From the NCBI RefSeq assembly GCF_036997485.1, contig NZ_JAWLPU010000003.1:434001-498000 (forward strand): 64,000 nucleotides of DNA, written 5' to 3'. The stretch comes from Brachyspira pilosicoli. GTDB lineage: Bacteria; Spirochaetota; Brachyspiria; Brachyspirales; Brachyspiraceae. A program made the position numbers and the translations under genes. The number at the start of each line of letters is the position of its first letter. Position 1 is the first letter of the stretch. Under the pieces are notes generated by a model. The model was not told the DNA's origin. It searched no databases and saw only the letters and a program-made list of their open reading frames with translations. This document shows, piece after piece, positions 55,925-60,770 of the stretch.

Positions 55925-57163
55925 TTAAATATTTTCTATACACTCACAAAGTATTGAAATAGCTTTTTCTAATTCTTTATCAGTTATTGTGAGAGGAGGA
56001 AGAAGTCTTATTTTATTTTTTGCTGTTAGTGGAATGACTCCTTTTAATATACATTTCTCAACTATTTCTCTTGCATTTAATCCATCTTTTAATCCTATTC
56101 CAAGCATTAAACCTATTCCGTCAACACTTACAACATTATTAAGTTTTGTTAATTTAGTTTTTATATATTTAGATTTCTTTTCAACTTCTTTTAATAAGTT
56201 TTTATCTATTATATTTAAAACTTCTAAAGCTCCTGCAGCAACAACAGGATTAGCACCGAATGTAGAAGCATGATCCCCCGGAACAAATACATCGGAACAT
56301 TTTTTATTCATAAGTATAGCCCCTATAGGAAGACCTCCCCCTAAACCTTTTGCTAATGTAGTGATGTCTGGTTTTATACCAAAATGTTCAGAGCATAAAA
56401 ACTTTCCTGTTCTTCCAACGCCAGTTTGAACTTCATCTACTATAAAAAGTATATCATTTTCTTCGCAGTATTTTTTTATCTTTTGTACATATTCTTTATC
56501 AAGAGGTATAACTCCGCCTTCACCCTGTATAAGCTCCATCATTATAGCACATGCATTATCTTTTAATTTTTCTATAGTGTCTTCATAGTTGTTTGCCTCT
56601 GCAAATGAAAAGCCTTCCAAAAATGGAAAAAAGTAATTGTGAAAAACTTCCTGACCTGTAGCAGAAATTGTACAGATAGTTCTGCCATGAAAAGAGTTTT
56701 TTAATGTTACAATTTTGTTTCTTTTATAATTTTTATCATTATTGGCATATTTATTGAATGAATATTTTCTTGCACATTTAATAGCAGCTTCATTTGATTC
56801 GGCACCAGAGTTGCAGAAAAATGCTTTATCGTATTTTGTGATAGAGCATAATTTTTTTGCTAAATCTATATAAGGTTTATTATAATAGAGATTTGAAGTA
56901 TGCTGCAAAGTTTTTAATTGATTAGTTACAGCATTAATCCAATTTTTATTTCCATAACCAATGCTATTAACTCCAATGCCGCTTCCTAAATCAATATACT
57001 CTTTTCCTTCTACATCTTTTAATTTAGTGTCTTTTCCAGATTCCAAAACTAAATCGAATCTTGCATAAGTGTTAGCAACATATTTTTTACTATTATTAAT
57101 ATATTCTTTTTTTAATTTTGATTTTTCATTATTTTGATTATTATTATTTTTTTTGCATGCCAT
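55925..57163 (-). CDS. argD: acetylornithine aminotransferase ArgD
   Basis: PLP enzyme converting N-acetylglutamate semialdehyde to N-acetylornithine. The 412 residues include FCNSGAESNEAAIK, the VDEVQTGVGRTG aspartate block and the PLP lysine Lys272 in TLAKGLGGGLPIG. A low-complexity Asn/Lys-rich N-terminal tail (about 1-28) is unusual; the ATG is supported by AAGGAT upstream. Ornithine aminotransferase is the alternative, but the arg neighbours decide it. Last gene of the operon. Confidence 0.92.
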   Translation of the reverse strand: MACKKNNNNQNNEKSKLKKEYINNSKKYVANTYARFDLVLESGKDTKLKDVEGKEYIDLGSGIGVNSIGYGNKNWINAVTNQLKTLQHTSNLYYNKPYIDLAKKLCSITKYDKAFFCNSGAESNEAAIKCARKYSFNKYANNDKNYKRNKIVTLKNSFHGRTICTISATGQEVFHNYFFPFLEGFSFAEANNYEDTIEKLKDNACAIMMELIQGEGGVIPLDKEYVQKIKKYCEENDILFIVDEVQTGVGRTGKFLCSEHFGIKPDITTLAKGLGGGLPIGAILMNKKCSDVFVPGDHASTFGANPVVAAGALEVLNIIDKNLLKEVEKKSKYIKTKLTKLNNVVSVDGIGLMLGIGLKDGLNAREIVEKCILKGVIPLTAKNKIRLLPPLTITDKELEKAISILCECIENI

Positions 57164-57191: not shown

Positions 57192-58058
57192 TTAATCTTT
57201 ATAAAACATTGTTCCTATACCTTCATCAGTAAACATCTCTATTAATAATGAATGGCATAGTCTTCCATCTATTATAAACACTTTTGATACACCATTTTGT
57301 ACTGCATTAATACAGTGTTGAACTTTAGGTATCATTCCTCCAGATATAGTTCCATCTTTTATAAGATTATCTATTTCTTTAATATTTATTTGGCTTATTA
57401 AAGTGCTTTCATCATCTTTATTTTGCAGAAGTCCAGGTGTATCAGTCATATATATTAATGTTTCAGCTTTTAGGCTTTCTGCAATTTTTGCAGCAGCAGT
57501 ATCAGCATTAATATTATAAACATTTCCATCTTTATCACATCCAACAGTAGCAACTATTGGAATATATTTGTTTGTTACTATTGTATTAAGCAAATGAGTA
57601 TCAACATCATCAACATCTCCAACAAATCCTAAATCAGTATCTCCTTTGTATTTGCTTACTTTAAACATGTTCCCATCAATACCGCATATACCTAAACATT
57701 TGCCTCCGCAGTTTTCAAGAGAAGCCACCAACTCTTTATTAACTTTTCCAGCAAGAACCATTTTTACTATTTCCGCAGTTTCGCTATCAGTGTATCTTAA
57801 TCCATTTATAAACTTTGATTCTTTGCCTATTTTATTGAGCATAGCAGTAATGTCTTTTCCTCCCCCATGAACTACTATAACATTTATTCCCACAGTAGAA
57901 AGCAAAGCAACATCGCTCATAACTTTCTTTTTTAATTCAGGGTTTTCCATAGCACTTCCTCCGTATTTTATTACAACGGTTTTTCCCGTGTATTTTTGTA
58001 TATATGGAAGTGCCTGATTAAGTATAAGTGCTTTATCTCTATTTGAAATATTATCCAT
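57192..58058 (-). CDS. argB: acetylglutamate kinase ArgB
   Basis: Phosphorylates N-acetylglutamate, usually the arginine-feedback step. The 288-residue protein has KYGGSAM (Lys31), VHGGGKDITAML and NINADTAAAKIA. Whether the N-terminal helix needed for arginine feedback is present (residues 1-20 are helical) suggests a regulated form, not proven. AAGGAA before the ATG. Operon with argC, argJ and argD. Confidence 0.95.
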   Translation of the reverse strand: MDNISNRDKALILNQALPYIQKYTGKTVVIKYGGSAMENPELKKKVMSDVALLSTVGINVIVVHGGGKDITAMLNKIGKESKFINGLRYTDSETAEIVKMVLAGKVNKELVASLENCGGKCLGICGIDGNMFKVSKYKGDTDLGFVGDVDDVDTHLLNTIVTNKYIPIVATVGCDKDGNVYNINADTAAAKIAESLKAETLIYMTDTPGLLQNKDDESTLISQINIKEIDNLIKDGTISGGMIPKVQHCINAVQNGVSKVFIIDGRLCHSLLIEMFTDEGIGTMFYKD

Positions 58059-58096: not shown

Positions 58097-59326
58097 TTAG
58101 CTTCTGTATGAGCCGTTAATTTTTACATAATCATAAGTTAAATCACATCCCCAAGCTATAGCCTTGCTAGCCCCGCAGTTCATATTTATTGTAATTTTTA
58201 TCTCATCTTCTTTTAATATTTTTAAAGCCTCTTCTTCATCAAACTTTACACCATATCCATCTTTATAAACATTCATCTCACCGTATTTTGAACCTACATT
58301 TATAGAAACTTTATTTATATCAAAATCAGCATCAGTATAACCTATAGCACATGAAATCCTTCCCCAGTTCATATCGCAGCCAAACATAGCAGCCTTAACT
58401 AAATTTGATGTTATAACAGATTTCGCTATTTTTCTTGCTAATTTCATATCGCTTGCATTCATTACTTCGCATTCTATTAACTTTGTAGCCCCCTCTCCGT
58501 CTTTAGCTATTGCTTTAGATAAATAAGTATTTGTCATATTTAATGCTTTGCAAAATATTTTATAATTATCATCTTCTTTATTTATTAAAGTGTTTTTAGC
58601 TTCTCCATTAGCAAGTACAACACACATATCATTTGTAGAAGTATCTCCATCAACGCTAACCATATTGTATGTAGATTTTGTATCCTCGCTTAAAGCCTTC
58701 TGAAGCATTTCACTTGATATATTGCAGTCTGTTGTGATAAATGCGAGCATTGTAGCCATATTTGGATGAATCATTCCGCTTCCTTTTGCTATGCCTCCAA
58801 TATGAACTTTTTTGCCGTCTATTTCAAACTCATAAGCTATCTCTTTCATAAATGTGTCAGTTGTCATTATTGCAGCTGCAGCATTTTTAGCATGCTTATG
58901 AGAGTGATTTGCATTATCTATTAATTGTTTAATATTTTTTTCTATAGGCTCTATTGGTAATGGTACTCCTATAACTCCAGTAGATGCAACAGCTACTTCT
59001 TTTTCATCAATACTAAGTACATCGGCAGTAAGTTTGCACATCTCTTTTGCTATTTCTACTCCGTTTTTATTACAAGTATTAGCATTACCAGAATTGCATA
59101 TAATAGCTTTTGCTTTTCCGTCTTTTAAATGTTCTTTACTTACTGTAATGTTTGCTCCGCATGCTTTATTTTGAGTATATACTGCCGCAGCAGAACATTG
59201 ACTTTTACTATAAATTATTGCTAAATCTTTTTTTTCTTTATTTTTCTTTATTCCTGCATGTATTCCATTTGCGAAGAAACCTTCAGAAGCACATACACCG
59301 CCTTCAATTTCTTTAATATTTATCAT
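58097..59326 (-). CDS. argJ: glutamate N-acetyltransferase ArgJ
   Basis: Recycles the acetyl group from acetylornithine to glutamate, saving acetyl-CoA. The 409 residues contain the autocleavage site HPNMATMLAF, with Thr192 as the new N-terminal nucleophile, and AAAAIMTTDTF. It may also accept acetyl-CoA (bifunctional forms), which cannot be told from sequence. AGGAG before the ATG. Separated from argC by 174 bases holding repeat copy D. Confidence 0.95.
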   Translation of the reverse strand: MINIKEIEGGVCASEGFFANGIHAGIKKNKEKKDLAIIYSKSQCSAAAVYTQNKACGANITVSKEHLKDGKAKAIICNSGNANTCNKNGVEIAKEMCKLTADVLSIDEKEVAVASTGVIGVPLPIEPIEKNIKQLIDNANHSHKHAKNAAAAIMTTDTFMKEIAYEFEIDGKKVHIGGIAKGSGMIHPNMATMLAFITTDCNISSEMLQKALSEDTKSTYNMVSVDGDTSTNDMCVVLANGEAKNTLINKEDDNYKIFCKALNMTNTYLSKAIAKDGEGATKLIECEVMNASDMKLARKIAKSVITSNLVKAAMFGCDMNWGRISCAIGYTDADFDINKVSINVGSKYGEMNVYKDGYGVKFDEEEALKILKEDEIKITINMNCGASKAIAWGCDLTYDYVKINGSYRS

Positions 59327-59500: not shown

Positions 59501-60559
59501 TTAAAAAGCTGGAGGAATGAAATTCAATCCTTCAGCTTCTTCTAACCCTAAAGCTATATTCATGTTTTGTATAGCCTGTCCTGCAGCTCCTTTTACCATA
59601 TTGTCTATTGTTGATACTATTATTAATTTGTTTGTTCTATTGTCTATATGCAAAGATATATCACAGTAATTTGAGTATTTAACATATTTTAAATTTGCTA
59701 TCTCTCCAATATTTAATACTCTTACAAATGCTGAATCTTTATAAAACTCTTTATAAATGTTATGTATATCTTCCAATTTAAGATTTTTATTTTCTAATTT
59801 AGCATATATTGTTGAAACTATTCCTCTGTTTAATGGAAGCAAATGAGGAACAAAAGTAACTTTTATATCTTCACCGTATATGTTTGATAATGTTTGTTCT
59901 ATTTCTGGTGTGTGTCTATGTTCAGCAATTTTGTATGGAGCAAATGCTTCATTACATTCAGTATAATGAGTATTTAATTTTAATTCACGTCCCGCACCAG
60001 TAGCTCCAGATTTAGAGTCAATTATAATATCATCTTTTTGTATTAATTTGTTTACCAAAGCAGGAGCTAATGCCAAACCTATAGAAGTAGGGTAGCAGCC
60101 GGGGTTTCCTATAATTTTAGCATTCTTTAATTGTTTCTTATTATATACATTATCATATTTAATTATTTCAGGTATTGAATAAATTGCCTCTTTATGAAGA
60201 TTTTTATATTTGTATTCTTTGCCGTACCAATTTTTATAATCTTCTTCATCGTCCAATCTGAAATCAGCCCCCAAATCTATAAATAAAATATTTTTTTCAA
60301 AGCATTTATTTGCAATCTCATCGCTTAAACCAGCAGGAAGTGAGGCAAATACTACATCAGTGTTTTCAAATATTTCATTTTCATCTATTAATAATTTATC
60401 TAAGTTTTTATTTAAGTTAGGATATACTTCGTTTATGTTTTTTCCAACAAAACTTTTTGAAGAAATATTTTTTAATTCTACTTTACTATGAGATAATAGC
60501 AGTCTAATTAATTCTGCACCTGCATATCCTGTTGCACCTATAACGGATACTTTTATCAT
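59501..60559 (-). CDS. argC: N-acetyl-gamma-glutamyl-phosphate reductase ArgC
   Basis: NADPH-dependent reductase of the third step to ornithine. The 352 residues show the nucleotide-binding GATGYAG (8-14), the catalytic Cys155 in GNPGCYPTS and HRHTPEIEQTL. First structural gene of argC-argJ-argB-argD. The ribosome site AGAGGAG (60575-60569) is nine bases before the ATG and is complementary to a leader segment just after the upstream small ORF. Confidence 0.96.
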   Translation of the reverse strand: MIKVSVIGATGYAGAELIRLLLSHSKVELKNISSKSFVGKNINEVYPNLNKNLDKLLIDENEIFENTDVVFASLPAGLSDEIANKCFEKNILFIDLGADFRLDDEEDYKNWYGKEYKYKNLHKEAIYSIPEIIKYDNVYNKKQLKNAKIIGNPGCYPTSIGLALAPALVNKLIQKDDIIIDSKSGATGAGRELKLNTHYTECNEAFAPYKIAEHRHTPEIEQTLSNIYGEDIKVTFVPHLLPLNRGIVSTIYAKLENKNLKLEDIHNIYKEFYKDSAFVRVLNIGEIANLKYVKYSNYCDISLHIDNRTNKLIIVSTIDNMVKGAAGQAIQNMNIALGLEEAEGLNFIPPAF

Positions 60560-60647
60560 AATACAATACTCCTCTGTGATATTTAGAAATAATATGTTTT
60601 TTATTTTTTTAATGTTTTTGATGAAATTATTTTAATAAAAGAATTTT

Positions 60648-60653
60648 AGAGGC
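60648..60653 (-). promoter_or_regulatory. anti-Shine-Dalgarno segment after the arg leader ORF
   Basis: GCCTCT directly after the leader stop codon. CCTCT (60652-60648) can pair with AGAGG of the argC ribosome site (60575-60571); alternatively its GCCT pairs with AGGC of the Arg codons. Five base pairs over 72 bases is weak alone; the placement is what is suggestive. Confidence 0.4.
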
Positions 60654-60710
60654 TTAACGCCTTGAAGAATGATTTGTAAAAAGAGTGTAGCTATTATTTA
60701 TATTTTTCAT
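60654..60710 (-). CDS. candidate arginine-operon leader peptide
   Basis: An 18-codon ORF, MKNINNSYTLFTNHSSRR, stop. AGGA lies eight bases before the ATG and a consensus promoter 33 bases upstream, so the mRNA should be translated. The last two sense codons are AGG and CGT, both arginine, and both seem uncommon here where AGA prevails. It is followed at once by an anti-Shine-Dalgarno-like segment and, 95 bases later, by argC. All this fits a translational attenuator that senses charged tRNA-Arg. Existence of the peptide is inferred from sequence only. Confidence 0.55.
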   Translation of the reverse strand: MKNINNSYTLFTNHSSRR

Positions 60711-60742
60711 TAGTTTTTTCCTAAAAATTTACTACAGAAAGT

Positions 60743-60770
60743 ATTATACTATAAATGATAAAAAAGTCAA
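60743..60770 (-). promoter_or_regulatory. promoter of the arg operon
   Basis: Minus strand TTGACT (60770-60765), 16-base spacer, TATAAT (60748-60743). Start expected near 60736, giving a leader of about 175 bases before argC. No ARG-box-like palindrome was recognised. Confidence 0.75.

Follow-up and report, generated by a model that had tools for sequence, protein, structure and literature searches.

In leaders of the trp and his type, a biosynthetic operon is preceded by a string of codons for the amino acid it makes, and in the erm and cat systems a leader ORF with a stall site lies upstream of the regulated gene. Arginine operons are classically placed under the control of ArgR or, in Firmicutes, of T-boxes. 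That leaders with arginine codons exist is already known from two cases. In the Salmonella speF leader orf34, arginine is sensed by two adjacent Arg codons, AGG CGG, which are codons 12-13 out of 34; this leader has no intrinsic terminator, it is acted upon by Rho, and the hairpin that follows its stop codon depends on the position of the ribosome (PMC6386406). In Staphylococcus aureus, the short leader rbfL (MVLKYRKR) ends in rare Arg codons and senses arginine via tRNA charging (PMC13009471). Our search, which covered the open-access literature, turned up no arginine-biosynthesis operon with a leader peptide and no account of leaders in Brachyspira. Here we argue that the argCJBD operon of Brachyspira is probably preceded by an arginine-sensing leader-peptide attenuator.

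The window analyzed, a stretch of 64,000 nucleotides of Brachyspira pilosicoli DNA, carries the operon on its minus strand, to which all coordinates in this paragraph refer unless stated otherwise. Its assignment as argCJBD in the original prediction is confirmed for all four genes by NCBIfam models: argC, N-acetyl-gamma-glutamyl-phosphate reductase (59501..60559; TIGR01850, 410 bits), argJ (58097..59326; TIGR00120, 476.7 bits), argB, acetylglutamate kinase (57192..58058; TIGR00761, 260.9 bits), and argD, of the acetylornithine transaminase family (55925..57163; TIGR00707, 437 bits). Upstream of argC, all of the sequence statements made in that prediction proved correct on direct reading. A near-consensus sigma-70-type promoter, TTGACT-16-TATAAT (60743..60770; 11/12 consensus positions), is followed by an AGGA ribosome-binding site (60719..60722), 8 nt ahead of the ATG at 60710, and by an 18-codon ORF encoding MKNINNSYTLFTNHSSRR (60654..60710). 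The last two sense codons (60657..60662) are AGG (60662-60660) and CGT (60659-60657); then come the TAA stop (60656-60654) and GCCTCT (60653-60648). AGGC (60662-60659) can pair with GCCT (60653-60650) to form a stop-codon hairpin, AGGC-GTTAA-GCCT (60650..60662), which holds TAA in its loop and the Arg codons in its 5' arm. From the leader stop to the argC ribosome-binding site AGAGGAG (60569..60575; argC ATG at 60559), direct reading gives a 78-nt spacer that contains C and is free of G (60575..60652), a candidate stretch for Rho loading. Divergent from argC lies an iron/cobalamin-type ABC transporter, with a cobalamin riboswitch (Rfam RF00174; 63766-63901, plus strand) downstream of it.

The window contains 18 ORFs of 12-25 codons that are preceded by an SD, and this is the only one to end in RR. 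Both codons are rare, AGG being used 3.7 and CGT 1.7 times per thousand as against 22.8 for AGA, and each is served by its own tRNA-Arg gene, with the anticodons CCU and GCG, respectively; among the 30 of 34 tRNA matches examined in this genome, the tRNA-Arg anticodons were CCU, UCU, UCG and GCG, and no ACG was seen. The tRNA-Arg with the GCG anticodon (L216:1500-1575) represents an unusual way to read CGT.

Our genus set consisted of 26 Brachyspira genomes, 23 of which have argC, with an argC upstream region readable in 22. An in-frame, SD-preceded counterpart of the leader ORF, 15-21 codons long, occurs in 19 of these 22 regions, and all 19 end in Arg-Arg-stop spelled AGG CGT TAA; they differ from one another in length, always by whole codons, and in the body of the peptide, while the end is invariant. 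The ribosome-binding stretch of the leader, TTTTAGGA, is conserved across main-clade genomes, and TTGAC and -10 elements resembling those of the window's promoter recur in the aligned regions. The 15-mer AAGGCGTTAAGCCTC is identical in 17 main-clade genomes, and its exact matches in the 26 genomes lie solely upstream of argC, one apiece in these 17. Because it has stayed unchanged across a tree whose length, from the third-codon positions of argC in 16 main-clade genomes, is 2.2 substitutions per site, drift does not account for it. The three genomes without the Arg codons (G002, B. alvinipulli; G018; G020) belong to one clade and keep a related frame, LLHYLFILGNSL followed by L or V and the stop in two of them and with a broken start in the third; since the deeper branches L021 and L023 retain the RR end, this represents a single loss. 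In the argC leaders of this clade (L018, L019, L020) the SD is kept and one start is out of frame, as if decaying. With considerable confidence, we take the ORF ahead of argC to be a translated Arg leader. Outside the genus, 71 Clostridia-type relatives, a further genus of the family and two genomes from the order yielded no convincing RR leader ahead of argC. Nor was an RR leader found in the argF(GH) upstream regions, or any leader, a His leader included, in those of hisG. In the former (L143-L158), ATTGCAAAATTATAAAAACGATATATAGTATTAC, which may combine promoter and operator, is conserved upstream of argFGH, and in main-clade Brachyspira a strongly conserved TTACTATTTGAAAAAAT...TTAT...ATTATAAT, with no leader ORF, stands just before hisG (L168-L186).

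What is new here is that the same 13-nt core ends a second leader, ahead of an ABC transporter. When all 26 genomes were searched for the 15-mer with at most one mismatch, an extra match in G016 (L121) turned out to close a further ORF, MINNFSNIKILSFFQVLIRR, which lies some 100 nt ahead of the gene for an amino-acid binding protein. This second leader, MINYFSDIKILSFFQVLIRR, is present in five genomes of the B. pilosicoli group, namely the window's own (G000), G011, G012, G013 and G016, and in G000 it lies at C1:931267-931205 (L269:5768-5706, minus strand), complete with Arg-Arg-stop and the stop-codon hairpin. The transporter leaders have their own promoter and a spacer of 101-110 nt, and the four genes of the operon (two SBP_bac_3 proteins, a permease and an ATPase) make up a complete amino-acid ABC transporter. 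The best solved homologue of the binding protein is 6svf (E 2.9e-55), the Thermotoga maritima arginine-binding protein, and Gln binders also appear in the match list; judging by this homology, the operon probably encodes an arginine importer. Orthologous transporters in the other Brachyspira genomes have no such leader upstream. FFQVLIRR is retained in all five transporter leaders. These leaders resemble those ahead of argC only in the RR-stop and the hairpin and are otherwise unrelated, which indicates that the codons rather than the peptide body are conserved, and that Arg-Arg-stop plus hairpin, contained in the shared 13-mer AGGCGTTAAGCCT, is the functional core. Since the 15-mer search with one mismatch would miss leaders like CAGGCGTTAAGCCTA, the regulon may be larger.

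As in known amino-acid leaders, then, a short SD-preceded in-frame ORF is found, in 19/22 argC and in the 5 transporter upstream regions, and the pathway's own codons are conserved, AGG CGT being invariant in leaders of both types and lost only in the alvinipulli clade. Conservation of the Arg-Arg-stop end, and its second use before a probable arginine transporter, are consistent with a ribosome that senses arginine by stalling. The C-terminal domain of ArgR (PF02863) was detected in 0/26 Brachyspira genomes, with 8/14 control genomes positive; in this genus without ArgR it is very likely the ribosome itself that detects a lack of arginine, by way of the leader. The window's genome lacks argG, a true argH and a biosynthetic argF (its sister G012 differs), so that argCJBD yields ornithine only; judged by gene content, the strain should make ornithine and be unable to convert it to arginine, and for this reason a leader on the importer makes sense. 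Several other Brachyspira genomes likewise have argCJBD without these three genes, and have close relatives with the full pathway. Both the absence of such a leader from the argF and hisG upstream regions and the retention of the argC leader in some genomes unable to make arginine count against the attenuator reading.

The small AGGC/GCCT hairpin of the original prediction reappears on folding as a conserved stop-codon hairpin, with an ensemble probability of 0.85-0.999 in most genomes (0.60 in L014 and 0.71 in L021). In L021 and L023, TCGTCCG or TCGCCCG follows the stop and pairs with GGCG, the register being displaced by one position (GGCG/CGYC). Random 3' arms of spacer composition match the hairpin energies in at most 0.5% of trials (1.75% for L021). 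The hairpin is only 4 bp long, and we found no other conserved structure in the leader; an AU hairpin before the argC SD looked suggestive by eye, with an inconsistent consensus.

Our model of the attenuator is as follows. The ribosome would translate the leader of 15-21 codons up to the two rare Arg codons beside the stop and, when charged Arg-tRNA is scarce, would stall there, covering the Arg codons, the stop-codon hairpin and perhaps some 10 nt downstream. This would allow expression of argCJBD and, in the B. pilosicoli group, also of the ABC amino-acid importer. With arginine plentiful, the ribosome would terminate and leave, the hairpin would refold, and a ribosome-free spacer of about 80-110 nt with more C than G would be exposed; expression would then drop, most plausibly because Rho terminates transcription or because the leader RNA, being untranslated, decays. 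That the leader senses Arg-tRNA charging we hold to be quite likely; stalling and the direction of control are inferred. We can also conceive, more tentatively, of AGGCGTTAAGCCT as a portable 13-nt module in which Arg codons, stop and hairpin overlap, so that sensor and switch coincide, and which might underlie an ArgR-free arginine regulon of ornithine synthesis and uptake, operating with no terminator, antiterminator or masking helix.

As to the output step, Rho is present in 26/26 Brachyspira genomes, and together with the C-over-G excess of the spacer this makes Rho-dependent termination in the untranslated leader the leading candidate, although we put it forward with considerable reservation. 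The excess falls in the top 5% of the background formed by 96 other upstream windows in most main-clade genomes; in L021 and L023, the deep branches, it is weak or missing, the transporter spacers show it in milder form, and the alvinipulli clade, which lost RR, has it. The hairpin partly hides the C-rich GCCT and is of no obvious help to Rho. Second in rank comes a model in which the ribosome directly occludes a hairpin that acts as a pause or weak terminator: the stop-codon hairpin and the pyrimidine-rich tract after it would form a minimal intrinsic terminator or RNA-polymerase pause site, blocked by the stalled ribosome in a pyrL-like manner. We consider this unlikely: the hairpin is conserved and pyrimidines reach 66% in the 20 nt that follow it, against 46% in the remaining spacer, but four base pairs are few, the U-tract begins with a delay of 3-5 nt and is poor in several genomes as well as in the transporter leaders, and the terminator scan of the window gave no intrinsic terminator-like site. 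Transcription attenuation of the trp/his type is not supported, with no mutually exclusive antiterminator and intrinsic terminator hairpins found, and no Rfam element, including a T-box by covariance model, matched the leader, a relaxed threshold giving chance-level matches only.

A different output step is called for because the switch originally predicted, in which GCCTCT masks the argC Shine-Dalgarno sequence as long as no ribosome is stalled at the Arg codons, did not hold up; of the leader-peptide attenuation proposed there, the Arg-Arg-stop leader stands and the switch does not. The complementarity of CCTCT to AGAGG of the argC ribosome site is real and exact in the window's genome, and many relatives show a weaker match, CTCY/GGAG. 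Across the aligned argC upstream regions, however, the Arg codons and stop are kept (19/22) and the GCCTCT/AGAGG match is not, being exact only in the window's genome. Pairing of GCCTCY with the SD has a probability below 0.06 in all 17 folded genomes, as the local stop-codon hairpin wins, and the SD is no more buried than with shuffled spacers. Masking the RNA at AGG to mimic a stalled ribosome failed to free the SD in 15 of the 17 genomes, accessibility rising only in L023 and slightly in L002; the transporter leaders, which have GCCTA in place of GCCTC[CT], likewise showed no consistent effect of a stalled ribosome. We also discarded the idea of a conserved anti-SD at some other place in the spacer or immediately ahead of the Arg codons, since its partners differ among genomes and burial equals that of shuffled spacers, and an erm/cat-type structure opened by a stalled ribosome found no support in folding, masking or the transporter leader. 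We thus regard masking as very improbable. Somewhat less so is an arrest peptide of the TnaC or SpeFL type, which at the stop codon would sense free arginine or ornithine through its nascent ...RR chain: Arg-Arg does sit directly at the stop and FFQVLIRR is conserved in five transporter leaders, yet the body of the argC leader is unconserved and the two leader families have only RR in common, whereas known arrest peptides need several spaced residues. Least credible of all is that AGGCgttaaGCCT is the DNA operator of an unknown repressor and the ORF incidental; this quasi-palindrome is indeed common to two arginine-related operons, but in all of 24 sequences it coincides, in frame, with the close of an ORF that has an SD, and deep-branch genomes keep the coding arm while altering the other in a way that preserves RNA pairing.

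Taken together, and on the evidence of genome sequences from one genus, an arginine-sensing attenuator would, if true, be the first case of an arginine-biosynthesis operon controlled by a leader peptide, as far as the open-access literature shows, with one Arg-codon leader reused on two operons, for synthesis and uptake, in a genus without ArgR. It would also offer a compact and easily recoded test case of how a stop-proximal stalled ribosome alters downstream expression without the usual hairpin pair. With ARG T-box and ArgR control it would have arginine feedback on arg operons in common, although neither T-box nor ArgR was found in Brachyspira. It resembles erm/cat in its leader ORF, but no conserved structure masks the downstream ribosome site; it resembles trp/his in its own-amino-acid codons, but these abut the stop and no terminator/antiterminator pair was found. 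Like rbfL, it is short, ends in rare Arg codons and would sense tRNA charging; there, however, stalling obstructs the rbf ribosome site, which overlaps the leader, and starvation means off (PMC13009471), whereas the Brachyspira gene starts about 80-110 nt downstream. The likeness to orf34 extends to paired Arg codons and the lack of an intrinsic terminator, and would extend to a hairpin tied to ribosome position; Rho, which acts on the orf34 leader, is a candidate in Brachyspira. The Salmonella leader orf34 differs in that its Arg codons are not at the stop and that it has a conserved peptide domain, DUF2618 (PMC6386406). Finally, the target of orf34, speF, makes putrescine from ornithine, whereas the Brachyspira targets make or import arginine precursors.
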